Made by a program: the position numbers and the translations under genes
NCBI GenBank assembly: GCA_029907705.1
Contig: JARYLJ010000020.1
Span: 1 to 36,252, forward strand
Source of the DNA: Methanomicrobiales archaeon
GTDB taxonomy: Archaea > Halobacteriota > Methanomicrobia > Methanomicrobiales > JACTUA01
Length of the DNA: 36,252 nt
Reading direction: 5' to 3'
In this document: in pieces, positions 16,235-35,785 of the stretch
Layout of the letters: each line of letters opens with the position of its first letter
How positions within the stretch are numbered: position 1 is the stretch's first letter
The notes under the pieces: generated by a model
Database searches by the model: none
Told to the model about the DNA's origin: nothing
Seen by the model: the letters and a program-made list of their open reading frames with translations, nothing else

Positions 16235-18250
16235 TCACGCTGCGTCCAGGAGGTGCTCCTCCAGTTCGGTCAGGGCGATCCCCTCGAGGGTCCCGGGGTC
16301 GAGGTCAGTAATCCTGTAATATGCACCGTTGCTCTCCTGCGCGATCTTACGGCAAAAACCGACGCCCAGAGAGAGGACATCACTGCGCGCCGCCTCCGTG
16401 TCGATCACCACCGTATGCACATCCCTGTCTGCCAGCAGCCGCGATAGTGCCAGGAGCTCCTCCCCGATCCGCCCGCCCATACCCACGTTCGCATGCCCGT
16501 CGGAGAGGAGGATCAGCAGGGGGATCAGGTGCGGGTGCTTCTCGCGCTCCCGCTCGAACCGCCTCAGCGCCAGATCGAGCCCCGACGAGAGAGGCGTCCT
16601 CCCGCCGGTGGGGACCTCTGCGAGCCGCTTCGCGGCCAGGTCTGTGCTCTGGGTGAAGGGGAGTATCTCGTCCGCCTGCTCCCCCCGGAACGCGATCAGG
16701 CCTATGCGGTCCCTGTGCCTGTATGCGTCCTCCAGCAGCGAGAGGACCGCTCCTTTCGCCGACTGCATCCTCCCCTCCGCACCCATGGAGCCGCTCGCGT
16801 CCACCAGGAAGAGGATGGCCGCGGAGGTTCTTCCGAAGCGTTCCCTGAACCTCAGGTCCTCGAGCCGTATCCTCACCCTCGGTATTCCGTCTCCCTGATC
16901 CTGATGGATCGCGGCGGCCCTGATACTCGCATCCAGTGCGAGCTCCCTGCGTTCCGATCTCTCCGTCGGCGACCTGTACCTCCCCCTCGCGAGGGGGGTC
17001 TCCACCTCCACCCTTCTCCCGCTGTCATAACGCTCCTTCCCCTTCGGAAGCATACGGGACCTCATCACCATGCCGGAGTCTATTCCCTTCCCGGGCCGTA
17101 TCACCTGCTCCTTCGCCTTTCCGCTCCGTGAACCCTTTCCGCCTCCCTTACCCGCATACTCATGGCGCCCCTCGTGCGGATGGCGCGGACCCCTGTCCTC
17201 CTCTCCGTCCCCTCCGCCCTCCAGGCGATCCATCAGATCGTCCAGCCGCCTCCTGTCGAGATCGGGGTCCTCGAAGGGGCGGCGGCGCAAACGATGCGGG
17301 AGCGCGAGATGCATCGCCTCGCGCACGTCTTCTCCGGTCACTGACGTCCTCCCATCCAGCGCCGCGATCGCCTTCGCCGCCCTCGCAACGGTGATCTCCG
17401 CCCGATGGGTCTTCACACCCAGCTCGTTGCAGGCACTGGCGATGTACCGGAGGAGACCATCGTCCATCGTTATGCCCTTCAGCCGGGCAATCGCACCCGC
17501 GATTTGCTCTTGCAGTTCGCGCTGCGCTCCCACGCAGGACGCCCTGAAACCGACAGGGTCCTGCTCGAAGCGCTCCACCACGCGGACGATCTCCATTCTC
17601 TGCTCCACACCGCTCAGGCCCGAAATGGTCACCTGGAGCCCGAAGCGGTCCAGGAGCTGCGGCCGCAGTTCCCCCTCCTCCGGGTTCATCGTACCGATGA
17701 GGATGAAGCGGGAGGGATGGGAGAAGGAGATCCCCTCCCTTTCCACCGTGTTCACACCCATGGCGGCGACGTCCAGGAGGACATCCACGATGTGATCGTC
17801 CAGCAGGTTCACCTCGTCGATGTAGAGTATGCCCCTGTGGCAGGCGGCGAGTATCCCCGGCTCGAAGGCCTTCACCCCCTTCTGGATCGCCCGTTCGATG
17901 TCGAGCGTGCCCAGCAGCCGGTCCTCGGTCACGCCCAGCGGCAGGGTGACCACCTGCACCTGGCGACGCTCCACCCCGGGGGCATTGCCCTTCCCGCCGC
18001 ATTCGCCGCAACGTATGCAGAACTCCCTGTCACGAACGGGATCCGCGTGGAACGGGCAGTTCTTCACCACCTCGATCTCCGGGAGCACCTCCGCGAGCGC
18101 CCTCACGGCGGTCGACTTTGCCGTGCCCTTCTCCCCTCTGATGAGCAATCCCCCGATCCTCGGATTGATCGCGTTCAGCAGCAGTGCCCTCTTCAGCTCC
18201 ATCTGTCCGACGATCGCTGAAAATGGAATGATCTCCGCTCCCTCCATCAT
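16235..18250 (-). CDS. Fused ChlI-ChlD-type metallochelatase AAA+/VWA subunit
   Basis: The 671-residue protein joins the two small subunits of an ATP-dependent chelatase. Residues 1 to about 330 are a ChlI/BchI AAA+ ATPase: Walker A GEKGTAKST (39-47), Walker B ILYIDEVN (141-148) and a sensor region GTMNPEEGELRPQLLDRFG. A Cys group C65, C78, C81, C84 lies between Walker A and B and could bind zinc. A Gly/Arg/Lys-rich linker (about 345-430) leads to a VWA domain with the MIDAS motif DASGSMG at D484. Such proteins power metal insertion by a large CobN/BchH-type subunit. The ATG overlaps the stop of the cobN-like gene by four bases, so both are made together. Metal and porphyrinoid are not shown by the sequence. 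Confidence 0.92.
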   Translation of the reverse strand: MMEGAEIIPFSAIVGQMELKRALLLNAINPRIGGLLIRGEKGTAKSTAVRALAEVLPEIEVVKNCPFHADPVRDREFCIRCGECGGKGNAPGVERRQVQVVTLPLGVTEDRLLGTLDIERAIQKGVKAFEPGILAACHRGILYIDEVNLLDDHIVDVLLDVAAMGVNTVEREGISFSHPSRFILIGTMNPEEGELRPQLLDRFGLQVTISGLSGVEQRMEIVRVVERFEQDPVGFRASCVGAQRELQEQIAGAIARLKGITMDDGLLRYIASACNELGVKTHRAEITVARAAKAIAALDGRTSVTGEDVREAMHLALPHRLRRRPFEDPDLDRRRLDDLMDRLEGGGDGEEDRGPRHPHEGRHEYAGKGGGKGSRSGKAKEQVIRPGKGIDSGMVMRSRMLPKGKERYDSGRRVEVETPLARGRYRSPTERSERRELALDASIRAAAIHQDQGDGIPRVRIRLEDLRFRERFGRTSAAILFLVDASGSMGAEGRMQSAKGAVLSLLEDAYRHRDRIGLIAFRGEQADEILPFTQSTDLAAKRLAEVPTGGRTPLSSGLDLALRRFEREREKHPHLIPLLILLSDGHANVGMGGRIGEELLALSRLLADRDVHTVVIDTEAARSDVLSLGVGFCRKIAQESNGAYYRITDLDPGTLEGIALTELEEHLLDAA

Positions 18251-21200
18251 CGCTCTCTCCTCCCCTCAGTCCCCGCCAGATCGTTCCGCTCGCTCCGGGT
18301 AATGATATCGATCGCACCGCCCTGCACCGGCGCATCGCCGGCACGCTCATCCTCCATCCATCCCTCGACCTCCAGATACGCCTCCTTCAGACCCTCGAGC
18401 ACCTCCTCACTCGCGTTCCAGAGCCCCCTCGCATGTGCCTCGAGCAGCCGCCTCCCTGCCTCCTCGAGCGCCCACGGGTTGTGCTCCCTGAAGAAGCGGC
18501 GCATCTCACCGTCGAGGAGGAATGTCCTCGCGATCTCGTCGAAGAGGTGGTCCCCCACCTCCTCCGTGGTCGCCTCCCAGCCGTAGACGCGCCCGATCCT
18601 CCTCGACAGTTCGGCCGCCCCCGTATAACCGTGCTCCTTCAGCGCATCGATATACCCGGGATGCAGGAGCTTCGCCCGCACCACCCGTGCGATCTCCTCG
18701 CCCAAGGTGCGGACCTCCACCCCGTCGCGCTCCCTCGTATCCCCGTAGTACGCCTCCACGTGCTCCCCCGAGAGCGACCTCGCGGCGGCGGTCATGCCGC
18801 CGTGGGAGCCGAAGTAGCAGCAGCACCCGAGCAGGTCATACTCGTCGGTCACCGTCTTGTTGAAGGTGAGGGAGACCGTCTTCAGCTGCGAACGGAACTC
18901 CTCCTTCGCGTCCGCCCCGTGCCTGTCTCTCCCGTAGGCGTATGCATTCCACTCCACGAATATATCGGCGAGATCCTTCGCATCCCTCCATGCGGATGCA
19001 TAGACCGCAAGGTTCACCCCCATCCCGTAGGTGCCGGGCCGGCTGGAGAAGATCCTCAGGAGTCTGCCGGACCCCTGCTCTCCTGCGTGTTTCCTCACAT
19101 AATTCATCTCCACCGGCTCCTCCCTGGCGGCGACGAGCTGGAGTGCATCGTCCAGGAGCTCGATGCATGCGGGGAAACAGTCCCTCAGAATCGCGCTCGT
19201 CCTGACCGTCAGATCGATCCGCGGGCGCTTCAGCACCGGGAGCGGTATCGCCTGCAGCGCACTCACCCTCCCGCCGCTCCAGACCGGTTCTATTCCGAGA
19301 AGCCAGAGCATCTGCGCCAGCTGCTCGCCGTCCGCCCACATGATGTCCGAGGCCATCCAGAGCATCCCGACGTTCTCCGGATACCGGCCCCCGTGCTCCT
19401 CACGGTACTTCTCCAGCAGCGCCTCCGCGAGCCGCCGACCGATCCGCCATGCCGCTTCCGTGGGGATCGAGGACGGGTCCATCGAGTAGAAGTTCCTGCC
19501 GGTGGGGAGGATCTCCTTCCTGCCCCTCGTGATCAGGCCCGAGGGCCCTGGCTCAACATGACCACCATGCAGCGCATGCACCAGGGATCCCGTCTCGTCC
19601 GTCGCATCCAGAAGCGCGGAGATCTCCCGCACCTCGTCCGCGACCGATGCGCACATGCCGCGGTCCACCTCGCCCAGGCGAATGCCTAGCAGACACTCCA
19701 TCGCCTCCGCAGGATCGCGGCCCTCGAGGAGCGCTCCTATCCACTCACACGACAGGGGATCCGGCTCCTGCGAGGTGATTGCCTCTCCCCTCCTCCTGTC
19801 TTTGTCCCCATCCGAAAGATGCGCGATCAGCCCCCTTACCTTTCCCTCGTACCGGAGCACCCCCTCAATGAAGCGGGCCCGACGCTCCCCGGCAGGTACC
19901 CTCCCGAAGATGTGCATGCCCATGGGGATCGAGGTGCCCTCCATGCGGGAGAGGACACGGTGCACCTGGTCGATAATGACCTGCATCGACTCCCCCCTCC
20001 CGAGGCGATCGTCGAGGCGGATCTCCTCCGCGATGCTGCACTCCCTGATCCGGTCCAGAATCAGGTGTTCCAGGGCATGGGCACGGGCATGCCTCTCGCC
20101 TGCCCTCCTGTACTCCGCGATCTGCTCCTCCAGCTCCTTCAGGGCGCCGTAGAGGCCCCCCGACGCCATCACCGTCTGCAGGTGGTCGACGAGCACCGCG
20201 TACGCCCTCCTCTTCGCGATCGTCCCTTCCGGCGGGTTGTCTGAGTTGTAGATGTAGAGCTGGGGCAGCGTGCCGAGCACGGCATCGGGGGCGCATGCGG
20301 CGGAAAGGGCGATTGCCTTTCCAGGGAGGAACTCCAGCGTGCCATGCGTGCCCACGTGCACGATCGCATCCGCACCGAAGACCTCCTGCAGGTAACGGTA
20401 GGTCGCCAGGTAATGGTGCGGGGGAGGCACCTCCGGATCATGGAGGATGCGGCAGACCATCCCGTCGCAGCGTGCACCCGCACAGCCCCGCTTCGGCTGG
20501 GTGCAGACGACCGCGTTCCCGAGGGAGATGCCCGTGATCACGATCCTGCCCTCGTACAGCATCGCCGCGGGTACGCCCTCCCTCGCCTCCCCCGGCGGGT
20601 CGCCCCATGTACCGATCACCCGCTCCCGGTATTCGGAAGGCAGGGCATCAAACCACCGCTGGTACTCCTCCAGCCCGACAAGTGCGAGGTACCCGTTGTT
20701 CCTGACGATATCCTCCACCGAGGTCCACCGGAACTCGCTGATCGCCCTCCTGGACATGATCTCCTGCACCAGCGCCTCCCCGCTTTCGGGCACTTCCACA
20801 TCGTAGCCCTCCTTTTTGAGTTTTTTCAGGATCTCGACCACGCTCTCCAGCGCATCCAGGTGCGCCGCGCTCCCGACGTTCGCCTCCACGGAGGCGCACG
20901 GGGCGTTGTTCAGGATGAACGCAATCCTCTTCTCGCCTGTGGGCTTCTGCCGCAGGCGCACCCATCGCAGCACCCGCTCCACCAGGTGCCCGATCCGCTC
21001 CTCCAGCGGGTCGTGCCAGTCGGGGGAGGCGCGACCCTGCTCCACCGATGCGGTGCCGCACGGTATGAACTCCACCATCCCCTGCAGCTCGGGCACGACG
21101 ACGGACCAGGCGATCTCCATGCTGCCCATGCCATCGCGGCGGGCCAGCCAGTCATCCCGTGTTCTATAGTAGAGCATGACGGGATGGAAGACCGGCACGT

Positions 21201-21957
21201 CCAGCTCCTTCAGGAGCTCCACCGAGGAGGCGGGATCGTCCCCTGCGAGCGAGGACTGGAGATCGATGAGCGCATCCACCTTACCGGTGAAGAAGTCCCT
21301 GACGGTACCGCCCCTCCCCTGCCTGCCCCCTTCCTTCTCGCCTGTACCGGTGGAGAAGACCGCGATGACATCCGCATGCCTCTCCACCTCCCTGATGAGG
21401 GCGTCCACCACCCTGAGATCCCTGTTCACCCAGTAGATCCGGTAGAAGAGGATCCCGATCGCTGCCCGGTGCCTCCTGGGCCTGAAGGCGAAGTACTCCT
21501 CAGGCGCAAGAAAGAGGCGATCCGCATCGGGATGGTAGATCCCCTCCCATGGCATGGCGAGCGGCTCCTGCGCCTCCCATGGCAGACCGAGCACCTCCCT
21601 GCCCAGGTAGCGGAGGAGAAGAAGCATGTTCTCCTTTCCGCCATAGGCGAAGTAGGCGTTCACCATCGCGCTCACGCCCGGCGGGACGTTCGAGAGCGCC
21701 CAGTGGGAGATGTCGAATCCGTAGGAGACGACCGGTTTTCCGCAGGGGAGCGCACGTACCATCTCGTCCCAGTAGGGCTCCTGCGTCGGGTGGAGCAGGA
21801 TCACGTCCGCTCCTCCCGCTCCCTCCAGGAACCGGTTCATCTCCTCCCGCCCGCTAAGCCTGGACGTGCTCGCTGCGTGGAGCTCCACCCCTGCCTCTGC
21901 CGCTGCTTCGACGAGCAGTGGAAGTTCGCTCGCCCATATCGCGGCGGCGACCCTCAT
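18247..21957 (-). CDS. CobN/BchH-like large chelatase subunit
   Basis: The protein of 1236 residues belongs to the CobN/magnesium-chelatase H superfamily that binds the tetrapyrrole and inserts the metal. Diagnostic stretches are HVGTHGTLEFLPGKAIALS with H534 and H538, then YIYNSDNPPEGTIAKRRAYA, and near the end EVLEGLKEAYLEVEGWMED. A four-Cys loop C485-x6-C492-x4-C497-x4-C502 precedes PPPHHYLATYRYL and could bind a metal or Fe-S cluster. The open frame runs to 22596, but that part is antisense-like shadow of the ATPase gene; ATG 21957 overlaps the ATPase stop by four bases and begins MRVAAAIWASEL like its homologues. Methanogens insert cobalt and nickel with small CbiX/CfbA chelatases, so the role of this large one is unclear. 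Confidence 0.92.
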   Translation of the reverse strand: MRVAAAIWASELPLLVEAAAEAGVELHAASTSRLSGREEMNRFLEGAGGADVILLHPTQEPYWDEMVRALPCGKPVVSYGFDISHWALSNVPPGVSAMVNAYFAYGGKENMLLLLRYLGREVLGLPWEAQEPLAMPWEGIYHPDADRLFLAPEEYFAFRPRRHRAAIGILFYRIYWVNRDLRVVDALIREVERHADVIAVFSTGTGEKEGGRQGRGGTVRDFFTGKVDALIDLQSSLAGDDPASSVELLKELDVPVFHPVMLYYRTRDDWLARRDGMGSMEIAWSVVVPELQGMVEFIPCGTASVEQGRASPDWHDPLEERIGHLVERVLRWVRLRQKPTGEKRIAFILNNAPCASVEANVGSAAHLDALESVVEILKKLKKEGYDVEVPESGEALVQEIMSRRAISEFRWTSVEDIVRNNGYLALVGLEEYQRWFDALPSEYRERVIGTWGDPPGEAREGVPAAMLYEGRIVITGISLGNAVVCTQPKRGCAGARCDGMVCRILHDPEVPPPHHYLATYRYLQEVFGADAIVHVGTHGTLEFLPGKAIALSAACAPDAVLGTLPQLYIYNSDNPPEGTIAKRRAYAVLVDHLQTVMASGGLYGALKELEEQIAEYRRAGERHARAHALEHLILDRIRECSIAEEIRLDDRLGRGESMQVIIDQVHRVLSRMEGTSIPMGMHIFGRVPAGERRARFIEGVLRYEGKVRGLIAHLSDGDKDRRRGEAITSQEPDPLSCEWIGALLEGRDPAEAMECLLGIRLGEVDRGMCASVADEVREISALLDATDETGSLVHALHGGHVEPGPSGLITRGRKEILPTGRNFYSMDPSSIPTEAAWRIGRRLAEALLEKYREEHGGRYPENVGMLWMASDIMWADGEQLAQMLWLLGIEPVWSGGRVSALQAIPLPVLKRPRIDLTVRTSAILRDCFPACIELLDDALQLVAAREEPVEMNYVRKHAGEQGSGRLLRIFSSRPGTYGMGVNLAVYASAWRDAKDLADIFVEWNAYAYGRDRHGADAKEEFRSQLKTVSLTFNKTVTDEYDLLGCCCYFGSHGGMTAAARSLSGEHVEAYYGDTRERDGVEVRTLGEEIARVVRAKLLHPGYIDALKEHGYTGAAELSRRIGRVYGWEATTEEVGDHLFDEIARTFLLDGEMRRFFREHNPWALEEAGRRLLEAHARGLWNASEEVLEGLKEAYLEVEGWMEDERAGDAPVQGGAIDIITRSERNDLAGTEGRRER

Positions 21958-22733
21958 GCTGCCGCCTCCCCGCTCGGCCTGATCGGGATGAGGTAGGGCA
22001 CACCATCGATCCGGTGAATCTCCACCTCGATCCCGTATACTGCACGGATCTTCTCGGGCAGGAAGAGCTCCGTTGGTCTGCCTGTGCCGGCGATCCTGCC
22101 CCCCTTCAGCATGACGATGCGATCGCAGTACCGTGCAGCGAGGTTCAGGTCGTGGAGCGCGACGATCACCCCGGTACCCTTCTCCTGCGCCTGCCTCTGC
22201 ACCAGCTCCATCACCTCCATCTGGTGCCTCAGGTCCAGGGAGGAGGTGGGCTCGTCGAGGAGGAGGATGGGGGTCTCCTGCGCGAGGGCGCGGGCGATCA
22301 TCACCTTCTGCCGCTCTCCGCCGCTGATCTGGGTCGTTCTGCGGAAGGCGAGCTCCTCGAGGCCGAGCAGACGGATCGCCTCCACCACCTTCTCCACATC
22401 GCGATCGCCCACGCTCCAGCCGATGTGCGGGCGCCGGCCCATCATCACGAAGTCGAAGACGTTCATCATCATGCCCACCGAGAGGGCCTGGGGCACGTAG
22501 GCGATGCACCGTGCGATCTCCCGCGTGGACATCCCCGTGATATCCCTGCCATCGAGCCGGATGCGCCCCTTCGGATGCAGCACCCGGTTCAGGCATTTGA
22601 TCAGCGTGCTCTTCCCCGAACCGTTCGGCCCCACCAGCCCCAGTATCTCCCCCTCCTCCAGCGCGAGATCGATCCCTTTCAGCACCTCCTCACTCCCGTA
22701 GGAGAAGGAGATCTCCTGCGCCTCCAGTCTCAC
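21954..22733 (-). CDS. ABC transporter ATPase, FecE/BtuD type
   Basis: The 259-residue ATPase has Walker A GPNGSGKST, Q-loop YVPQAL, signature ISGGERQ, Walker B PILLLDEPTSSLD and the H-loop ALHDLNLA, all intact. It belongs to the iron-siderophore/heme/cobalamin importer family (FecCDE, BtuCD). It starts with GTG 22733, whose bases overlap the TGA of the permease gene (GTGA). The frame remains open far upstream to 23573, but there it only shadows the permease. It is the energiser of the importer encoded by the two genes before it. Confidence 0.95.
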   Translation of the reverse strand: MRLEAQEISFSYGSEEVLKGIDLALEEGEILGLVGPNGSGKSTLIKCLNRVLHPKGRIRLDGRDITGMSTREIARCIAYVPQALSVGMMMNVFDFVMMGRRPHIGWSVGDRDVEKVVEAIRLLGLEELAFRRTTQISGGERQKVMIARALAQETPILLLDEPTSSLDLRHQMEVMELVQRQAQEKGTGVIVALHDLNLAARYCDRIVMLKGGRIAGTGRPTELFLPEKIRAVYGIEVEIHRIDGVPYLIPIRPSGEAAA

Positions 22734-23803
22734 CAGAACCCCTCCCTGCTTCTGACGAACAGGTACAGGAAGAACGGTATCCCGATGAAGGCGGTCATGA
22801 TGCCCACCGGCAGGATCACGGGGGCGAGGATCGTCCTCGCCAGACTGTCCGCTCCGAGAAGAAGCACCGACCCGACCATCCCGGCCCCCGGAAGAAGGAA
22901 CCGGTGGTCGCCCCCGATCGCGAGGCGCGTGATATGCGGCGCCACCAGGCCGATGAACCCGATCGTGCCGGTGAACGCGATGATGGAGGCGGTGATGAGG
23001 GAGGCGATGAACATCTGCTCGGTCCTCGTCCGCTCCACGCGGACGCCCAGACTGGCGGCCACCTGGTCGCCCTGGCTGATCGCGTTGAGATCCCAGGCGC
23101 GGTACACGAGATATGGCACGACGACAGCGAGTGCGAGCGCGAGAATGCCCGTCTTCAGCCAGGAGGTCCGCTGGAGGCTCCCGAACATCCAGAAGACCAC
23201 CTCCGCCAGCTGCTCCCTGGAGCCGATGTACTGGAGGAAGGAGGTGAGCGCGGAGAAGAGGTACATGAGCGCGATGCCGGCGAGCACCATGCTCTCGGCC
23301 GATATACCCCTGTAACGCGAGAGGCTGTAGATGCCCGCCGTGGCCAGGAGCGAGAAGACGAATGCATTCAGTATCACCAGGTATTCGCCCTGCGCCATAC
23401 CGAGGCCGAGCACCATGGCGAGCGCCGCACCGAAGGTCGCTGCCGAGGAGATGCCTAGCGTGAAGGGGCTCGCCAGCGGGTTCTTCAGCACCCCCTGCAT
23501 GACCGCACCCGCGATGCCCAGACCGAAACCGGCGAGCATGGAAAATATCACGCGGTGGAGGCGCAGCTCCCACACGACCGTGGTGGCGAGCGGGTCAGGT
23601 GCGGGGACGAAGTCCAGAAACCTGGAGGCGATCGCGATGTACACCTCTGCGATGGTGAGGCCGGCCGAACCCAGCGTGATCGCGAAACCGGCGAGGAGTA
23701 CGGTCAGGACCAACAGCGATGCGATGAATATGATCTTTCTTCCGACGGAGCGCCTGTACTCCCCCCTCAGCTCCGTCATCGCCTGACCACCGATACCCTT
23801 CAT
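22730..23803 (-). CDS. FecCD-family ABC transporter permease
   Basis: The 357-residue protein has about ten membrane spans. A first span lies at residues 27-47, and RLHRVIFSMLAGFGLGIAGAVMQG followed by NPLASPFTLGISSAATFGAAL is the hallmark of FecCD/BtuC permeases, as are GTIGFIGLVAPHITRL and the C-terminal GADSLARTILAP with the EAA-like coupling loop. It imports iron chelates, heme, cobalamin or related compounds through the membrane. It begins 13 bases after the binding-protein stop; ATG 23803 and an in-frame ATG at 23779 (after GGTGGT) are both possible. A homodimer is expected because only one permease is present. Confidence 0.94.
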   Translation of the reverse strand: MKGIGGQAMTELRGEYRRSVGRKIIFIASLLVLTVLLAGFAITLGSAGLTIAEVYIAIASRFLDFVPAPDPLATTVVWELRLHRVIFSMLAGFGLGIAGAVMQGVLKNPLASPFTLGISSAATFGAALAMVLGLGMAQGEYLVILNAFVFSLLATAGIYSLSRYRGISAESMVLAGIALMYLFSALTSFLQYIGSREQLAEVVFWMFGSLQRTSWLKTGILALALAVVVPYLVYRAWDLNAISQGDQVAASLGVRVERTRTEQMFIASLITASIIAFTGTIGFIGLVAPHITRLAIGGDHRFLLPGAGMVGSVLLLGADSLARTILAPVILPVGIMTAFIGIPFFLYLFVRSREGFW

Positions 23804-23816
23804 TCGCCGGTCCCCC

Positions 23817-25025
23817 TCATGGGTATACGAACACCCTGTCCTCGACCAGATCTTCGGGCATTCCCTGGAACTCGTGCACGTAGCGGAGGTGGATCTCCTC
23901 CGGCTCCAGGGAGGGGAAGTCCTCAGGATACAGCCACTTCGCCAGATACGCGGTACCGACGATGAACTGCGGCCCGCCCATGATGTCCGTGTGCATCAGA
24001 TGCACCCGCCCTTCCCTCACCGCCTCCAGCGTGCTCCATCCGGGCCTTTTCAGCAGCGCCTCGTAGGTCTGGGCGTAACGCGTGGTGTTCGCCTCCCGGT
24101 AGCCCCCGAACCTGTAGTCCCCGGTCCCCACGAGCTTCACGATCACCTGCGGGGTTCGCTTCAGGACCGCCTCGGGATCGATCGCCGGGTACTCGGTCGT
24201 CTCCTCCCCGAAGATGTTCGTGCCTCCCGCCATCTCGATCTTCTCGTGATAGCCGGAACCCTGACCGCCCGTCTTGAAGTCCGTCCAGGTCTCCAGATAG
24301 ACCCTCATCCTCGCGTCTTCGGGTATACCCGCCGTGTGTTTCGTTATTTCTCCGATTGTTTCGTCGTAGAAGGCGAGGTAGCGCACCCCCTTCTCGCGGG
24401 CACCGAAGATCTCCATGAGCGCCTCCACCTCGCGTCGGTAGGTCGCGGGCTTGTACCCGTCGAACCTGAATATCATCGCCGAGGGCATCGTGCTCCCCAG
24501 GGTCCTCACGATTGCATCCGTCGAATCGGGGCTGATCGTGGCATACAGGAAGACCGCATCGGGCTTCAGGGAGAGGATCTTCTCGTAGTCGGGCGCCCAG
24601 ATGGAGCCCACGTTCACGTGCCTCGTATATTCGGGGAAGAAGTCGGGCTTCTGGAGGGTGTACTTGTCCACCCCCACCACCACGCGGGAGTTCACGCCGA
24701 TGGAGCGCATCGTCTCCAGGGTCTCGCTGTTCATCACCACCACACGTCCGAGTGGCCGCTCGAGCATGTACGCATTGCCCGCGCTGTCCTTCACCTCCCG
24801 TTGCGTGCCGTTCCAGTACTTCACGACGAAGGCGGCGTCCTGCACCTCGCGCTGGAGAACGGGGTTCTCCTGCAGCCTGCCGTGCACCTGAAGCAGGTAG
24901 TCGAGTGCGATGGGATAGAGCTCATCCTCCGCGATCCTTCCGTCACCGTCGAGATCGAGGGGCAATGCCGCCGAGACCGCGCTGACGAGGAGCAGGAGGA
25001 GGCAGAGGAGCGCAGGCACCCTCAT
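23817..25025 (-). CDS. Periplasmic-type metal-chelate/cobalamin binding protein with EF-hand loop
   Basis: The 402-residue protein has a signal peptide (residues 1-19, ending VSAVSA). Directly after it is DLDGDGRIAEDE (24-35), a calcium-binding dockerin/EF-hand-like loop with ligands D24, D26, D28 and E35. From about residue 80 it is a Peripla_BP_2 (BtuF/FecB) fold: LGRVVVMNSETLETMRSIG, then PDYEKILSLKPDAVFLY and a C-terminal domain with GGTNIF and AIDPEAVLKRTPQVIV. There is no lipobox, so anchoring is by an unknown route, or by the neighbouring membrane protein. The ligand, heme, siderophore, corrinoid or another chelate, cannot be told. The start overlaps the previous stop (ATGA). Confidence 0.93.
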   Translation of the reverse strand: MRVPALLCLLLLLVSAVSAALPLDLDGDGRIAEDELYPIALDYLLQVHGRLQENPVLQREVQDAAFVVKYWNGTQREVKDSAGNAYMLERPLGRVVVMNSETLETMRSIGVNSRVVVGVDKYTLQKPDFFPEYTRHVNVGSIWAPDYEKILSLKPDAVFLYATISPDSTDAIVRTLGSTMPSAMIFRFDGYKPATYRREVEALMEIFGAREKGVRYLAFYDETIGEITKHTAGIPEDARMRVYLETWTDFKTGGQGSGYHEKIEMAGGTNIFGEETTEYPAIDPEAVLKRTPQVIVKLVGTGDYRFGGYREANTTRYAQTYEALLKRPGWSTLEAVREGRVHLMHTDIMGGPQFIVGTAYLAKWLYPEDFPSLEPEEIHLRYVHEFQGMPEDLVEDRVFVYP

Positions 25026-28312: not shown

Positions 28313-30499
28313 ATGACGAATGCGTTGCACCACGCGCTCAAGGGCATACGGCGATATCTGAGACTGGAGGGAAGAGATGAGGCCCCTTTGGAGAGAGACG
28401 AACAGGGGGGCGGGGAAGCGGTGGGGGCCAGGAGGGAGGTGCAGGATGCATCCCCTTCCCTGCCCAGTACGGAGAGGAGGACAGGGTTCGATCTCGAAGG
28501 CAGTGAGCCGAACGGGGCCAGGCCCGTCTTAATGGGTGAGAATGAGGAGGCGGAGGCACGCGATATCATCATCAGGGGCCTGATCGCCAGAACCAGCCCG
28601 CTCGAAGGAATGGGCGTGAGGGAGGCGATCCTCGCACGGGAGAGGGATCGAAGGAAGGCACGAACGGGCTTCTTCAGGAAGAGCGACCCCGACCTCGAGA
28701 AGATACCCCGGCTGGTGATGCGGATCGGGCCCGAGGCGGAGCTGGATGCCGATGAACGGGAGCTCCAGGCACTCATCGGTGGGCTGGTGCCGACGGGATA
28801 TGCAACTCCGGACCACCATGAATCGCTCATCCGTGGTCTGATCGCGCGCACGAATCCCGTGGATGACCTGAAAGGGAAGGAGGCGCCGGTGGCAGAGGAA
28901 AGGGAGGCGAGAAAGGGCATATGGGGGTTCATCAGGAGGAGGGACCCCTCGCTCGAGAGGATCCCGACCCTGGTGGTGGGGAGAGGGGGACCTGCTTCTG
29001 CGACCAGTGCCACTGTCGAGGGCGGAAGCGCGGAGGTGATCGGGAGCTACTCGGTGAACCCCCCCTTCGCGAGGGTGAGGATCGTGAAGGACGCGGCCGG
29101 TGGGGTCCGCTACGAAGCGGTGGAACCCCTGCTCGAACCCAGGGAGATCGTGCTGCTGGAGGAGGTATTCAACTACTTCAGGGACACCATCCTCTTCGAG
29201 AGCCCGATGGCGGCAGAGAGGATGACGATCACCATGGAGGAATTGGGGGACGCGGTCCGGATGTTCGAACCTGCGATGAAGGACACCCGGCTGCCGGTAT
29301 TGTATTATTACCTGACCAGGAACTTCTATGGATACGGGCGGATCGACCTGCTCATGCGTGACCCGGCGCTCGAGGATATCAGCTGCAACGGACCGCAGAT
29401 ACCGGTCTTCGTCTTCCACCGAGAGTACGGGAGCATACCCACGAATATCGTCTTCGGGTCGGAGGAGATGAACAGGTTCGTCCTCCGGCTCGCCCAGAAG
29501 GCGGACAAGCAGATATCCCTCTCCACCCCGCTGGTCGATGCACACCTCCCGGACGGCTCGAGGATCCAGCTCACCTTCAGCGACGTCGTCTCGACGAGAG
29601 GGAGCTCGTTCACCATCCGGAGGTTCAAGAAGGACCCGATGACACCGCTCAACCTGGTGCAGTACGGGACATTCGACCCCCTGATGCTCGCCTTCATCTG
29701 GTACGCGCTGGAGCACCGTTCCAGTGCGATCATCGCGGGCGGCACAGCGAGCGGCAAGACCTCCACGATGAACGCGATCTCCTTCTTCATCCCGCCCAAC
29801 GCGAAGATCGTCTCGCTGGAGGATACGAGGGAGATCCAGCTCCCGCACCAGAACTGGCTCCCCGTGCAGACCAGGGAGCTCTCCCTGACGAGCGTGAAGG
29901 GGGAGATCGACCTCTTCATGCTCCTGAAGTCCTCGCTCCGACAGAGGCCCGAGTACATCATCGTCGGGGAGGTGCGCGGGAAGGAGGCGCAGACGCTCTT
30001 CCAGGCGATGAATACCGGCCACACCACCCTCTCCACCCTCCACGCGGGAGACATCGAGGAGGCGATCAACCGCCTGACAAACGAGCCCATCGCCGTCCCG
30101 CCCGTGATGTTCTCTGCACTGGACCTGATGATCATTCAGGGGATCCATCACCGGGAGGGCAGGATCATCCGTCGCTGCGACTCGATCCACGAGATCATGG
30201 TGGAGAGGGACGGCACCATACAGCATCAGCCCCTCTTCCTCTGGGATCCGAAGCTGGACGATTTCGAGCGGCTGAAGATTCACTCGCGCATCCTCTCGCG
30301 GATCGCGCACGACTACGGCACGAGCGAGGACGACACCCTCGTGGAGATCGGGAGGAGGGCGAGGTTCATACACGAGCTCCTCCAGAATCCGCCAGCCACC
30401 GCCGAGGGACTACTCCTTCGCCTCCATGACTTCCTCGCCGCAGGGGGCTGTGCCGCCACGGACACTTCCGTTCCTGACGCGGAGAAGGAAGAGGAATGA
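28313..30499 (+). CDS. Archaeal pilus assembly ATPase (GspE/TadA family) with duplicated N-terminus
   Basis: The 728-residue protein is a type II/IV secretion ATPase: Walker A GGTASGKTS (about 476-484), the Asp box EDTREIQL, Walker B-region YIIVGEVRG, and the His box NTGHTTLSTLHAGD. It drives assembly of a type IV pilus. Residues about 82-145 and 163-225 are two copies of one motif, RGLIARTSPLEG... and RGLIARTNPVDD..., each followed by a GF(F/I)R+(S/R)DP(D/S)LE+IP(R/T)LV segment; this duplication is not part of the ATPase fold. GGAGG at 28299-28303 is nine bases before the ATG and can pair with CTCC at 28290-28293. The gene heads a four-gene operon. Confidence 0.93.
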   Translation: MTNALHHALKGIRRYLRLEGRDEAPLERDEQGGGEAVGARREVQDASPSLPSTERRTGFDLEGSEPNGARPVLMGENEEAEARDIIIRGLIARTSPLEGMGVREAILARERDRRKARTGFFRKSDPDLEKIPRLVMRIGPEAELDADERELQALIGGLVPTGYATPDHHESLIRGLIARTNPVDDLKGKEAPVAEEREARKGIWGFIRRRDPSLERIPTLVVGRGGPASATSATVEGGSAEVIGSYSVNPPFARVRIVKDAAGGVRYEAVEPLLEPREIVLLEEVFNYFRDTILFESPMAAERMTITMEELGDAVRMFEPAMKDTRLPVLYYYLTRNFYGYGRIDLLMRDPALEDISCNGPQIPVFVFHREYGSIPTNIVFGSEEMNRFVLRLAQKADKQISLSTPLVDAHLPDGSRIQLTFSDVVSTRGSSFTIRRFKKDPMTPLNLVQYGTFDPLMLAFIWYALEHRSSAIIAGGTASGKTSTMNAISFFIPPNAKIVSLEDTREIQLPHQNWLPVQTRELSLTSVKGEIDLFMLLKSSLRQRPEYIIVGEVRGKEAQTLFQAMNTGHTTLSTLHAGDIEEAINRLTNEPIAVPPVMFSALDLMIIQGIHHREGRIIRRCDSIHEIMVERDGTIQHQPLFLWDPKLDDFERLKIHSRILSRIAHDYGTSEDDTLVEIGRRARFIHELLQNPPATAEGLLLRLHDFLAAGGCAATDTSVPDAEKEEE

Positions 30500-32352
30500 A
30501 CAGGCTACCAGAGAGGGAGAGGGAGGATTTCTACGGGCGGAGGATCCGGCCGATACTCGCGGAGACGGGCCTGCGGGAGGCGCTGCGGGGAGCACACATC
30601 CCGGAGATGGCCGAGCACTACGTACGGAAGGCGATCCTCGCCGGCGCACTCGGCGCTGCCGCCTTCGTTTCGATCTTCCTCGCGTTCCAGCACTTCGGAT
30701 ACGAGCTGGTGATCGGCGATCTCCCCGCCTGGGCGACCACGGCGACGGGGTTCCTGGTCCTCTGCCTCTTCCCCTTCCTCGGCATATACGCATACCCCTA
30801 CCTGGCCGCCATGGGAAGGCGGACCGAGATCGACCTTGATCTCCCCTACACGATCACCTATATGCAGGCGCTCTCCACGACGATGTCCCTCTACCATGTC
30901 ATCAGGAGGGTGCACGAGGAGTCGGACCTCTTCGGCGAGGTATCAAGGGAGTTCGGGGTGATCGTCCGGAACGTCGAGGTATTCGGGGACGACCTCTATA
31001 CGGCGATACGCGACCTGCAGCGGACCACGCCCTCGCAGAATCTCCGGGATTTCCTGAACGATCTCGTCGTGATGTCCACGAGCGGGGGCGATCTCACCAC
31101 CTTCCTCGCCGCCAGATCGGCGAACTTCCGCGAGATCGCGCGGAACGAGATGGAGATGATGCTCAAGACGCTGGAGGTGATGGCGGAGGTGTACGTCACC
31201 GCGTTCGTCGCCGGACCGATCGCGATCATCGTCATGGTCGTGGCGCAGAACCTCGCAGGACAGAGCACCCTCTCCGGCTGGCTGCCGCTCGTATATCTCG
31301 GCCTCTTCCTCGGGTCGATCGCGATGATCGTCATTCTGCACATCCTGCTGCCATCCGATCACCTGACCATCCGGCGGCGGGAGGTGCGGGAGAGCGAGTA
31401 CTGGAGCGGCTGCCATCGGGAGGAACTGCTGGGATCGCTGGACAGGAGGTTCCTCTCCCGGATCAATTCGATAAGGAGCAGGATCCGGCTGAAGACGGTA
31501 CTGAAGAATCCGGTCCGATACTACATCTCGGACTACATCTATGCCCAGCTCATCGGCACGATCGGCGTCGTCGTGATCTTCCTGCTCTACCTGACGGGGG
31601 CGCTCGCGTCGCTCTCCCCGCTCCACCAGATGGAGGTGCTCGTCGCGCTCCTCGTCATCGTGGCGCTCTTCCCTATTGCGGTCGCATACGAGGGGCGGCG
31701 GATGTACGTGAACAGCGTCGAGAAGCAGCTCCCCGATTTCCTCCGTGAGCTGGCAGAGATGAAGGACATCGGGCTCACCCTGCAGGGGGCGATCGACCGG
31801 ATCTCCCGGGCGAGGCTGGGGGTGCTCAGCTCGGAGCTGCAGGTCGTCTCGGCGGAGGTGAGGCAGGGATCGAGCATCGACATCGCGCTCTCCAGGATGG
31901 AGGAGCGGATCGGCCTGGTATCCGTGAAGAGGGCGATCTCGGTCGTGGTGAGGGCGAGCGAGATCACGGACTACCTCCGCGACATCCTGATGATCGCGAT
32001 CTCCGACTTCGAGCACTACCTGAAGATGAAGCGCGATCGTTTCAACGCCTGCTTCGTGTACGTGATGATCATCTATCTCTCCTTTGGGATCTTCCTCTAT
32101 ACGATCTATGCGCTGAACGTCTCCTTCATCGCCAGCTTTGCGAACCTGAACGTACCCCTGACGAACGCGGGCAACCTCACGGATATGTTCCGGATCGCGA
32201 TCCTGCTCGGCGGATTCTCGGGGATCATGGCAGGGCAGCTCAGCTCCAACAGCGTCCTCGCCGGCTTCAAGCATACGATCGCCTTCCTGATCGGGACGCT
32301 CCTCCTCTTTCTGGTGATCATACCGTATGCATCGGGGGGGATGTTCGCATGA
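30496..32352 (+). CDS. Pilus assembly membrane platform protein (TadC/ArlJ-like)
   Basis: The 618-residue protein has about nine membrane spans: two near 45-95, two near 235-290, two near 350-400, and three in the last 110 residues. The soluble segments between (for example EIDLDLPYTITYMQALSTTM and QLPDFLRELAEMKDIGLTL) are two T2SSF-type domains, the plan of archaeal FlaJ/TadC platform proteins that hold the ATPase at the membrane. Its ATG overlaps the ATPase stop by four bases (ATGA), giving coupled synthesis. It forms the inner-membrane core of the pilus machine with the ATPase and the two pilins that follow. Confidence 0.92.
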   Translation: MNRLPEREREDFYGRRIRPILAETGLREALRGAHIPEMAEHYVRKAILAGALGAAAFVSIFLAFQHFGYELVIGDLPAWATTATGFLVLCLFPFLGIYAYPYLAAMGRRTEIDLDLPYTITYMQALSTTMSLYHVIRRVHEESDLFGEVSREFGVIVRNVEVFGDDLYTAIRDLQRTTPSQNLRDFLNDLVVMSTSGGDLTTFLAARSANFREIARNEMEMMLKTLEVMAEVYVTAFVAGPIAIIVMVVAQNLAGQSTLSGWLPLVYLGLFLGSIAMIVILHILLPSDHLTIRRREVRESEYWSGCHREELLGSLDRRFLSRINSIRSRIRLKTVLKNPVRYYISDYIYAQLIGTIGVVVIFLLYLTGALASLSPLHQMEVLVALLVIVALFPIAVAYEGRRMYVNSVEKQLPDFLRELAEMKDIGLTLQGAIDRISRARLGVLSSELQVVSAEVRQGSSIDIALSRMEERIGLVSVKRAISVVVRASEITDYLRDILMIAISDFEHYLKMKRDRFNACFVYVMIIYLSFGIFLYTIYALNVSFIASFANLNVPLTNAGNLTDMFRIAILLGGFSGIMAGQLSSNSVLAGFKHTIAFLIGTLLLFLVIIPYASGGMFA

Positions 32353-32765
32353 AGCGCGCTGGCGGAGCGGAGGACGCGGTCTCCGAGGTGGTGGGAGAGA
32401 TGATCCTCATCGCGATCGTCCTCATCCTCGTATCCCTCGTCGGGATCTCGATCTACGGCCTCGTTCCCGGCGAACGGGAACCCTCGGTGGACGTGCTCTT
32501 CGAGAACACCGGCGGGAGTGTCGCCCTCCACCACAAGGGCGGGGACGCGATACCGAAGGGGGACCTTCTCCTCTTCATAGAGGGCGACCGCTTCACCCAC
32601 GCGGAGTTCGCCATGTACGACCAGAACGACAACGAACTTTCGGACCCCGATGCGCTCTTCGATCTGGGATGCCGCATCGAGATGAGTGGTCTCGATCTAA
32701 CAGGCGGCGAGCGGGTACAGCTCGCCACGCCGCGTGCGGTGATCTTCAGCGGGGTGACGAAATGA
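32349..32765 (+). CDS. Archaeal type IV pilin-like protein (DUF1628 type)
   Basis: The 138-residue protein has an archaeal class III signal region, AEDAVSEVVGEM, before a hydrophobic core (about 18-42) that would form the pilus-assembling helix after cleavage by an EppA/PibD-type peptidase. The mature part contains LHHKGGDAIPKGDL, the motif characteristic of DUF1628/archaeal pilins. The ATG overlaps the TadC-like stop (ATGA). It is a major or minor pilin of the operon. The frame of the next gene also overlaps its end by four bases. Confidence 0.88.
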   Translation: MKRAGGAEDAVSEVVGEMILIAIVLILVSLVGISIYGLVPGEREPSVDVLFENTGGSVALHHKGGDAIPKGDLLLFIEGDRFTHAEFAMYDQNDNELSDPDALFDLGCRIEMSGLDLTGGERVQLATPRAVIFSGVTK

Positions 32766-33607
32766 CGGGGGAGGAGGCGCTCTCGCCCGTGGTGGCCGTG
32801 ATGCTCATCCTCGCGATCGTGATCACCTTCTTTACGCTCTTCAACGCGACCGTCGTGCCCGCGATGAAGGAGCAGTCAGAGATGGAGCATCTCGAGCGCG
32901 TGAAGGAGGCGTTCGGGCGCTTCGACACGGACGTCCACATCTCGATGGCGATGGAAGGGGACGTCACCCTGAAGGAGCGGATCCCCCTCGGCGGGGGCGA
33001 TGTGCTGGTGAACACGATCAGATCGGGAGGCACGCTCCGCGTGCAGGAGCTGGCGCCGCTCTTCCGTGTGACGATCGATGATACGTATAACCTCTATGCC
33101 GGCATGGTGGAGGTCTCCTACCAGCCCGTATCGAACTTCTGGCAGGACCAGGGCTACAACTGGCAGTACGGGTACCTGAACGTGACGAAACACAATGGCC
33201 GCGTACGCACGCCACTCGAATACCCGCGGATGGAGGACGTCTCCCTCGAAGGCTTCGCGAACTCCACCGTGTCCATCGCGAGGGGGGCGGACGGGAACTG
33301 CACCCTGCGCTATGTGAACCTTACGAAGGGGGATTCCGACTTCGCGAGCGGGAACGGGCACGCACTCCTCCGGCTGGATGCCCTCGCGGTGCTGTACAAC
33401 GCGAGCGGGTGGGTGAACATCACCTACACAGGGGGAGCAGGTGCACCGGAGGCGTTCGGCAATATCACCCCGCGCCTCGAAGGTCAGTTCGCCGGCTGCA
33501 GCAACATCCTCTCCTGCAGCTACAATAACGATACGAAAATGCTGGCGATACAGGTGAGGCCGCCATTCACGGTCGCGGAGCGCCATATCAAGGTCTCTGC
33601 CGGTTGA
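32762..33607 (+). CDS. Large pilin-like surface protein
   Basis: The 281-residue protein begins MTGEEALSPVVAVMLILAI, an archaeal pilin signal and hydrophobic helix (about 9-32), then a large, strand-rich extracellular domain with many N-x-S/T sites (for example NGTR-like NASGWVNITYTG and NCTLRYVNLT), which suits a glycosylated surface domain. It lacks the GGDAI motif of smaller pilins. The ATG overlaps the previous stop (ATGA), so it is co-translated. It is probably a minor or tip pilin, which is inference from size and position. The open frame extends to 32327 in antisense-like shadow; ATG 32762 was chosen by the overlap. Confidence 0.85.
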   Translation: MTGEEALSPVVAVMLILAIVITFFTLFNATVVPAMKEQSEMEHLERVKEAFGRFDTDVHISMAMEGDVTLKERIPLGGGDVLVNTIRSGGTLRVQELAPLFRVTIDDTYNLYAGMVEVSYQPVSNFWQDQGYNWQYGYLNVTKHNGRVRTPLEYPRMEDVSLEGFANSTVSIARGADGNCTLRYVNLTKGDSDFASGNGHALLRLDALAVLYNASGWVNITYTGGAGAPEAFGNITPRLEGQFAGCSNILSCSYNNDTKMLAIQVRPPFTVAERHIKVSAG

Positions 33608-33635: not shown

Positions 33636-34931
33636 TCATCCTGCCGCTTCACCTCTGGCGTCATATGAAAGATCGTACTGCCGCATAAGCGCCAGGTACC
33701 GGTGGTAATGGTATGGATCGAGCACCGTTCCCATCCCCATCAGGTCTTTCCATTCACGCGCATGCCGGTACTCGGTGCTCACGTCCAGCGAGCGGGTGCC
33801 GTTGCCCACCCTGACGATCCCGTAGTAGGATGTGACCTGGAATGAGCCCTCGTATTCGGCCGGGACGTAGGTGATGATCTCGACGCCTGTGGTCTCCACG
33901 AACGCGTAGCCCGAGTCCATGAAATCGTACCTCTCCGAGCACCTCACCCCCACGGCGGCATGACCCTCATCGAAGGAGCCGTACGCCGGGAAGACGAATA
34001 CCACTGCATCATAACCGAGCCGGTCGAGGAGGTAGGCGAGGAGTATGGACTTGTCGATGCACACCCCTTCGTTGCGGTAGAGCGTCTCGTAGGGGTAGTA
34101 AAAGTTCTGCTGCCTGACCGGCTGACTGCCGTAGTAGAGGGTGATATTTCTCTCAGTTTTTTTATACGGAATGTGCTGCACCAGGCTGATCGCGTTCTTC
34201 GCCTGCCCGTCCGGTGAGGGGGACGATCGCCTGATCTCCTCAAGCAGGGGGTTCATGTAGGCATCCATGTACGGGTCAGCGAGCATCGATCGAATCCTCC
34301 TCTCCATCAACTCAGTAGGCTCTTCTTTCGCGGCCGGATCGCCCGCCGTCAGAAGCCCCCCGAGCTGCACCTCCTCCTCCCGCTCAAGATAATGTGCATA
34401 TCCGCCGTACATCGTGATCTTCAGGTACTTCCTCCACCTGTCGTGGAAGACGAAGGATCTCGCCTCGGGGGCGGTCTCGAAGCTGGCGGCCAGATCCTCC
34501 AGCTGCGCACCCTCCGCATCGGCGAGACCGGTTGCTTCCACCATCTGGAGGGGAATATCCGGCGTCGTGATAGCGCTCCATGCGGGAGCGCCCTCCGAAC
34601 CCCTCCCGCGATCTCCGAACCCTGCGTGAAACGCGCCGATCGCGAGGAGGACCATTCCGGAGATGAAGAAGAGGCAGAAGAGGCCTTTCGCCATCCCCCG
34701 TGCACCCTTCCCCCTCTCCCGCCGTTCCTCCGCTGCCACCTCCGCGTACGAAGGCACGGAGAACGCGGTATTTCTCATGAGCATCTCCTTCCGCTCCGTC
34801 TCCGACCAGAACCCCCTGCCCAGGCAGTGGTGCGCCTCGGGGAGTCGGTGGTCGTCGCAGAAGTACCCGCCGCAGCGCCGGCATTTCCACGGGAGCCTCT
34901 GGATCGTCCTGCCGCACCAGCGGCATTTCAT
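33636..34931 (-). CDS. Membrane-anchored AN1-finger/transglutaminase-like protein
   Basis: The 431-residue protein starts with an AN1-type zinc finger (C3, C6, C17, C20, C25, H28, H34/H35 and C36). A membrane span follows at about 80-101 (GLFCLFFISGMVLLAIGAF). The outer part contains a transglutaminase/protease-like core: C291 in NEGVCIDKSILLAYLLDRLG, H324 in GHAAVGV and D339 in DFMDSGYAF, the Cys-His-Asp triad. Before the core, residues 135-270 have no recognised domain. The cytoplasmic AN1 finger and external catalytic domain make a transmembrane arrangement that I have not seen described. It is convergent with the pilus operon, and next to the third pilin gene. A TATA-like box 29 nt upstream suggests a leaderless message. 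Confidence 0.86.
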   Translation of the reverse strand: MKCRWCGRTIQRLPWKCRRCGGYFCDDHRLPEAHHCLGRGFWSETERKEMLMRNTAFSVPSYAEVAAEERRERGKGARGMAKGLFCLFFISGMVLLAIGAFHAGFGDRGRGSEGAPAWSAITTPDIPLQMVEATGLADAEGAQLEDLAASFETAPEARSFVFHDRWRKYLKITMYGGYAHYLEREEEVQLGGLLTAGDPAAKEEPTELMERRIRSMLADPYMDAYMNPLLEEIRRSSPSPDGQAKNAISLVQHIPYKKTERNITLYYGSQPVRQQNFYYPYETLYRNEGVCIDKSILLAYLLDRLGYDAVVFVFPAYGSFDEGHAAVGVRCSERYDFMDSGYAFVETTGVEIITYVPAEYEGSFQVTSYYGIVRVGNGTRSLDVSTEYRHAREWKDLMGMGTVLDPYHYHRYLALMRQYDLSYDARGEAAG

Positions 34932-35251
34932 GATCGGATGGTAGGAACAGACGACGATAAAAAGTTACTGATCGCTCTTCTGGAGAAGAAAAAGTAACAC
35001 CCGTATGCTCCGGTGTCACCGCATCCCCTCCGGTTCATGGCAGAGTCCGTAAGGCGGATGCCCCTCCGTTCGGAAGATATTCTTTTTCACCGAAGGCATC
35101 GCATCTACGCTCCCGTTTGGCTGCCCGAACGGCGGCACAGGACAAGGGCGATCCCTGATCTCCCGTTTACGGTAACGATAACTCTTATCTTTCTTTCGAT
35201 TCCATCTTTTTTATTTATAATAAATTTTTTGTTTTTTAATAATAAGTAATC
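34932..35251. other. Spacer between divergent TGase-like and pilin genes
   Basis: About 320 bases. The left edge has the TATA-like box of the TGase-like gene and a perfect GTTACT...AGTAAC inverted repeat (34964-34969 and 34993-34998). The right edge is a T-rich stretch leading into the pilin promoter. No gene is seen. Confidence 0.45.
34956..34963 (-). promoter_or_regulatory. TATA-like box for the TGase-like gene
   Basis: Minus-strand TTTTTATC, centred 29 nt before ATG 34931. No Shine-Dalgarno precedes the ATG. The same TTTTTAT form occurs before the divergent pilin gene. Confidence 0.45.
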
Positions 35252-35260
35252 TTTTTATAC
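35252..35260 (+). promoter_or_regulatory. TATA box for the third pilin gene
   Basis: TTTTTATAC centred at about 35256 places the transcript start near 35282, which is after ATG 35279 and before ATG 35291, so it selects the second ATG. Confidence 0.5.
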
Positions 35261-35290
35261 CATTCGGTAGTATAGAGAATGCTGGTACCC

Positions 35291-35785
35291 ATGGAGCGAG
35301 GCGAGAGGGCGGTTTCACCCGTCGTGGGCGTGATGCTGATGCTGACGATCACGATCATCGTCGCCGCCGTCATCTCCGCCTTCGCCGGGGGGCTCGGCGC
35401 CCCGCAGGAGAGAACCCCGCAGCTCACCGTCACCGCGAGTGTATACAACAGCACCACCCTCTGCCTGGATCACATGGGGGGCGACGCGATCCCCCTCGAG
35501 GATATCGTAATCGTCCTTGATCAGGCGGAGAAGAGCCTGAGGTTCAGCAACGCCACCCTCGATCGGGCGCAGGAGAACGACATGCGCATCAAGGCGGGCG
35601 GGTCCCTCTACCGTTCGGGCGACACGCTCGTGTTGAAGGGGATTCTCTCGACGGATGCAACCTGCTTCAACACGACCTCCGCCTCCATCGCGCTCTCGCA
35701 CGGGAAGGAGTTCACATGGACGCTCCTCTCCTCCAGAGGTGACGCGATCCTCGCGAGGGGCAGGCTGGCGTTTGCCGCCGAATGA
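35291..35785 (+). CDS. Archaeal type IV pilin (DUF1628 type)
   Basis: The 164-residue form begins MERGERAVSPVVGVMLMLTI, a textbook archaeal pilin signal, with a hydrophobic helix to about residue 36. The mature part contains LDHMGGDAIPLEDI, nearly the same as LHHKGGDAIPKGDL in the pilin at 32349, so the two are paralogues. Several N-x-T sites suggest glycosylation. ATG 35279 would lie before the expected transcript start from the TATA box at 35252-35260, so ATG 35291 is chosen. It is transcribed alone, after the convergent TGase-like gene, and followed by a T-rich terminator. Confidence 0.88.
   Translation: MERGERAVSPVVGVMLMLTITIIVAAVISAFAGGLGAPQERTPQLTVTASVYNSTTLCLDHMGGDAIPLEDIVIVLDQAEKSLRFSNATLDRAQENDMRIKAGGSLYRSGDTLVLKGILSTDATCFNTTSASIALSHGKEFTWTLLSSRGDAILARGRLAFAAE

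Follow-up and report, generated by a model that had tools for sequence, protein, structure and literature searches.

The window, by which we mean the whole 36,252-nucleotide stretch of Methanomicrobiales DNA analyzed here, carries on its minus strand, at 33636–34931, a gene for a 431-residue protein (P0001) that joins an AN1 zinc finger, a transmembrane (TM) span and a transglutaminase-like (TG) domain, referred to below as AN1-TG. The original prediction had placed the gene at exactly these coordinates, and its finger, single span and TG-like domain in one chain were confirmed, with both domains scoring over their Pfam cut-offs and one clear span present. The finger (34821–34919, minus strand; Pfam residues 5–37) matched zf-AN1 (PF01428) with an E-value of 1.5e-8 and a score of 35.1 bits (cut-off 27.9). 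The TG domain (33897–34172, minus strand; Pfam residues 254–345, widened to about 148–425 by the family alignment) matched DUF553, "Transglutaminase-like" (PF04473), with an E-value of 1.5e-7 and 31.4 bits against a cut-off of 20.5; several close homologues fell just under that cut-off. These were the only Pfam matches of P0001 at E-values up to 1, and no NCBIfam match was found. The AN1 pattern consists of eight Cys/His ligands in order. The corresponding residues C3, C6, C17, C20, C25, H28, H34 and C36, spanning positions 3–36, are invariant in 4/4 aligned full-length AN1-TG proteins, P0001 included, and by sequence the finger is AN1-like and a predicted zinc binder.

The pilus cluster around the gene

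The pilin genes predicted beside AN1-TG are real, as are the flanking ATPase and platform genes. On the plus strand, domain matches identified a pilus assembly ATPase of T2SSE/VirB11-TadA type, here called class 1 (28313–30499), a platform protein of T2SSF/FlaJ-TadC type (30496–32352), and a pilin with a match to Pilin_N, the archaellin/pilin N-terminal domain (32349–32765), which we name pilA. These are followed by a pilin-like gene, pilB (32747–33607, plus strand), whose Pilin_N match lies below its cut-off, and which converges on AN1-TG with 28 bp between the gene ends. On the other side, an AT-rich divergent intergenic region of 347 bp (34932–35278, GC 0.447) separates AN1-TG from a further Pilin_N pilin, pilC (35279–35785, plus strand); pilB and pilC are likewise our names. 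With pilB on one side and pilC on the other, AN1-TG is thus a TG gene placed within a type IV pilus locus, here of class 1. Lying on the opposite strand, convergent with pilB and divergent from pilC, it would not be co-transcribed with the pilus genes, and so is inside the pilus cluster yet outside its operon. A scan for promoters and terminators around the gene used bacterial consensus sequences and was hence uninformative. Within the order Methanomicrobiales, the cluster of ATPase, platform and pilin genes is conserved. The window's cluster occupies 0.42% of its genome, a share that is not a fair p-value for the position of AN1-TG, since the gene was picked for its pilin neighbourhood.

AN1-TG occurs once in the source genome (1.79 Mb, 70 contigs). 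A recent foreign origin was considered and rejected: its GC (0.611) and GC3 (0.789) are close to those of the neighbouring genes (0.62–0.64 and 0.83–0.88, respectively) and of the cobaltochelatase gene (GC3 0.779), giving no signal of foreign origin. Elsewhere in the window, 16235–25025 on the minus strand encodes a CobN-like cobaltochelatase, an AAA/VWA chelatase-type protein, a FecCD permease and a binding protein, a set that suggests a cluster for taking up and inserting a metal or cobamide.

Predicted topology and active site of AN1-TG

P0001 has one clear hydrophobic segment, residues 83–101 (34629–34685, minus strand), which is preceded by a basic stretch and falls within a helix (residues 62–103) of an AlphaFold2 model. 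The next segment, residues 296–314, scores 1.62 and is a helix within the TG domain. In a charge-bias scan of seven AN1-TG proteins (an eighth, L087, has four predicted spans and was excluded), Lys and Arg numbered 5–12 in the 25 residues preceding the span and 0–4 in the 25 following it, the N-terminal side being the richer in 7/7 cases. Among the TG relatives that lack AN1, many start with a hydrophobic stretch resembling a signal sequence and some with a lipobox-like Cys, as judged by eye rather than by a signal-peptide program. Because positive charge precedes the span and the AN1-less relatives begin signal-like, the best model is N-in/C-out, with AN1 predicted to be cytoplasmic and the TG domain outside. 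The prediction of a finger inside and a TG domain outside is thereby supported.

For the active site, the original prediction had proposed a Cys-His-Asp papain-like core. In 34 aligned TG relatives, the predicted nucleophile Cys291 (34059–34061), the predicted catalytic His324 (33960–33962) and Glu346 (33894–33896; all on the minus strand) are each kept in 32/34, compared with 14/34 for Asp336. The Cys and His of the proposed core therefore stand, while the Asp gives way to Glu346 as the predicted third catalytic residue, and from the alignment the active center probably reads Cys-His-Glu. The two rows (of 34) that lack the Cys also lack the His, a joint loss that fits a working pair. The TG relatives L098 and L106, with Cys and His both lost, are likely pseudoenzymes.

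The AlphaFold2 model of P0001 has a mean pLDDT of 74.8, with the TG core mostly at about 85–97. A sequence search found no solved structure for P0001 at E-values up to 1; structure comparison of the model returned, among the matches listed, TG-fold proteases and transglutaminases. The best solved-structure match among those listed was 3kd4 (Z 9.8 over 144 residues), with LapG entries at Z 8.4–9.0, PNGases at 8.3–8.8 and human TGase 3 at 7.4. Judged on the model, the outer domain is of the TG/papain-like fold, in agreement with the papain-like core originally proposed. The likeness to the LapG-type family is at the level of the fold only, the sequence domains of P0001 being zf-AN1 and DUF553.

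These matches bear on whether the protein could be a true transglutaminase, crosslinking or transamidating surface proteins such as pilin subunits. The fold itself would allow it, and transglutaminases are among the matches of the model, one being an S. pyogenes protein titled TglA. However, the best matches are to proteases and PNGases as much as to transglutaminases, and published relatives linked to type IV pili are termed surface peptidases in the available text of PMC4858521. We regard a transglutaminase as quite unlikely.

TG proteins at pilus loci

At 35/97 loci with the class-1 pilus ATPase, a TG-like gene was found no more than 7 kb from it (no more than 200 bp at 26 of these), compared with 0/30 control ATPase loci (Fisher p = 1.5e-5, a value that ignores relatedness). 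The class-1 set comprised all 97 loci in 231 genomes with an ATPase of at least 504 bits, below which there is a clear gap down to 426. The controls were 30 lower-scoring ATPase loci hand-picked from the listing, and the TG profile for the locus scan was built without the pilus-operon family described below. Contig ends cut some of the loci scanned. Apart from the window, the 34 cases come from 33 genomes and five families, f2 to f6. Seven of these 34 proteins keep both Cys and His (L223, L232, L233, L239, L249, L254 and L262), while in the other 27 the Cys is replaced by Ser, Thr or Arg; what the pilus-linked proteins have in common may therefore be something other than catalysis. This split is what recommends an alternative in which the outer domain serves mainly to bind or scaffold pilus subunits, with catalysis optional. 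Retention of Cys and His in the window protein, as in the seven pilus-linked relatives, speaks against it, and we consider it very unlikely for AN1-TG. In five of the seven (L223, L232, L233, L239 and L249), the Cys- and His-keeping TG domain comes after four PEGA repeats.

Immediately upstream of the ATPase, two Methanofollis-genus (g8) genomes encode a membrane-anchored protein of about 565 residues with a weak TG match. Profile comparison of this pilus-operon family with the TG family gave a probability of 98.8 (E = 6e-17), compared with 1.8 and 0.1 in two control comparisons, and 20/20 fetched relatives adjoin the ATPase. Members of this family are L160:9048-10748, L162:8133-9824 and L179–L198, with the catalytic Cys replaced in most; no Pfam family matched L160 or L162, and no match to the family was found in the genome of the window.

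In the Methanoculleus group (genus g9), an AN1-less TM-TG gene adjoins a pilin-like gene in 13/13 genomes compared among those that have this TG gene, 12 by Pilin_N and the thirteenth (G018) by protein search. Pilin_N found no such neighbour in six further genomes (G004, G059, G084, G043, G092 and G099), whose TG paralogues belong to other groups. The g9 genomes were rejected as independent evidence: gene order is conserved further downstream as well, so the pairing represents a single event. As in the window, a pilin-like gene adjoins the gene of a membrane-anchored TG protein, and the TG family is the same, but the Methanoculleus TG protein lacks AN1, and its pilin-like gene is a different, near-universal one. 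This pilin-like protein (L068:15556-16119 and relatives) has matches in 202/231 Methanomicrobiales genomes, mostly one per genome.

The original prediction had further suggested that the protein, on an inner signal, may process or crosslink surface proteins, perhaps pilins, and had expected linkage to pilins in other genomes. For the AN1-fused form the expected linkage was not found. An initial search by regular expression and single-sequence phmmer near homologues recovered only the window's own pilins; being too insensitive, it was replaced by whole-genome Pilin_N searches. In these, 0/6 other genomes tested had Pilin_N near AN1-TG: there was none on the same contig, and in G038, a single contig, none was nearer than about 580 kb, while the test in G052 was weak, its contig being only 6.8 kb. 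An insensitive phmmer scan, used alone, found no pilin nearby on an 8.1-kb Archaeoglobaceae contig carrying AN1-TG. In G005, G038 and G195 there was no match to the class-1 ATPase, only to lower-scoring ATPases. With no nearby Pilin_N in six genomes, and three without a class-1 ATPase match, the fused chain does not generally accompany the class-1 pilus. Pilin processing thus draws support from the class-level link (35/97 compared with 0/30, and the available text of PMC4858521), while the lack of linkage of the AN1-fused form in six genomes counts against it.

AN1 as a module and the proposed role of AN1-TG

A single-protein scan of named genomes found no relatives of P0001, whereas an alignment query gave matches. 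AN1 and TG occur in one open reading frame in eight distinct proteins, the window's included (145 loci), and literature searches, at the level of search results, found no paper on the fusion. The carriers are G000, G005, G038, G052 (the last a Methanofollis), G195 (Methanoregula, three AN1 fingers), G192 (two AN1 fingers, four spans), G150 and the Archaeoglobaceae contig. In G076 the AN1 and TG parts are neighbouring open reading frames. Among the eight, L087:4965-6671 combines a TG domain with two AN1 fingers and four predicted spans in one chain, and in a Methanofollis genome a small AN1-single-span protein (L063:1587-2114) adjoins the AN1-TG gene. No relative of AN1-TG was found on viral contigs. 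A contig titled Bacteroidales (L116) yields a match identical to that of a Methanomicrobiales contig (L102) and looks mis-binned.

On a maximum-likelihood tree of 34 TG domains the AN1 label changes six times, five of them forced by well-supported branches; with at least five changes, AN1 has been gained or lost repeatedly. In a survey of 20 hand-chosen proteins, an N-terminal AN1 finger with one or more spans was also joined to CAP (four proteins), a C39-type peptidase (one), rhomboid (three) and a weak M50 match (one), which points to AN1 as a swappable module. These archaeal proteins are L031, L034, L057 and L090 for CAP, L089 for C39, and L123, L137 and L139 for rhomboid.

Such a module would suit a general surface-protein protease or quality-control factor with no pilus role, its AN1 finger docking the translocon or cytosolic chaperones and its position in the cluster due to chance. 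Fusion of AN1 to rhomboid, M50-like, C39 and CAP domains suggests a module of general use, and elsewhere AN1-TG lies beside unrelated genes, some of these genomes giving no match to the class-1 ATPase. Against this, TG proteins are associated with class-1 loci but not with the controls, a link also published (PMC4858521, available text), and AN1-TG is the sole clear TG-family member in its genome. We regard a general protease as a real possibility, though a doubtful one.

The reading that we prefer, which we hold to be evenly poised between right and wrong, is that AN1-TG is a membrane-tethered, single-pass surface peptidase whose likeliest substrates here are pilins or pilus-associated proteins, with AN1 docking or sensing inside. 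The finger would stay in the cytoplasm, and the TG-fold domain, with its putative Cys-His-Glu center, would face outward, most likely acting as a cysteine peptidase at the membrane that cuts surface proteins. In the source genome, the likeliest substrates would be pilins or pilus-associated proteins of the cluster that the gene interrupts. For the AN1 part, the most likely role is not ubiquitin binding but docking, to the assembly machinery or to a partner in the cytoplasm, or else the sensing of an inner condition.

A more specific proposal, tentative and on balance unlikely, is one-chain control of the pilus from inside: AN1 would sense or dock an inner partner and thereby switch the outer Cys-His-Glu domain, a peptidase trimming or releasing pilins; in this lineage the protein would take the place of the separate TG-like protein of the pilus operon. 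If true, it would exemplify a unit of AN1 and span that archaea combine with different outer enzymes. The tie between TG-family surface proteins and archaeal pili dates from 2016, and a Cys- and His-keeping TG domain in one chain with a predicted cytoplasmic finger offers a handle on pilin cutting at the surface and its inner control. The recurrent AN1-span fusions, for their part, are an argument that AN1 fingers in prokaryotes work in membrane proteolysis and not in a ubiquitin system.

Three known systems invite comparison. Burroughs, Iyer and Aravind (2011) reportedly described prokaryotic treble-clef proteins of the AN1, B-box and LIM types as membrane-associated partners of peptidases; AN1-TG is similar in being a peptidase-type membrane chain with AN1 as its predicted inner end, and so are the AN1-rhomboid, AN1-C39 and AN1-CAP chains found here.

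Makarova, Koonin and Albers (2016) reported that, in Methanomicrobiales, transglutaminase-family surface peptidases of arCOG03450 are strongly linked with the type IV pili of euryarchaea; the available text suggests pilin processing or degradation and calls the role unknown (PMC4858521). AN1-TG is likewise of the TG type, predicted to lie at the surface and encoded alongside euryarchaeal type IV pilus genes in a member of this order, but it bears an AN1 finger, and the available text of that paper makes no mention of AN1 and does not contain the word "zinc". Since it was already published there, we do not present the class-level link of TG proteins to pili as new; it is already known, and what is added here is the extent of the link, the split between Cys-keeping and Cys-less proteins, and the AN1-joined form in a pilus cluster.

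In LapD/LapG of Pseudomonas, adhesin is controlled inside-out by an inner sensor and an outer protease that are two proteins, with c-di-GMP as the signal (PMC3032545, available text). For AN1-TG, no second-messenger part was found. The two systems would be alike in having an outer cysteine protease governed from inside, and the AN1-TG model matches LapG in fold; they differ in that the window protein is one chain with an AN1 finger, whereas the Pseudomonas system uses two proteins and c-di-GMP. We do not class AN1-TG as a member of that system, which by analogy it may nevertheless resemble in outline.
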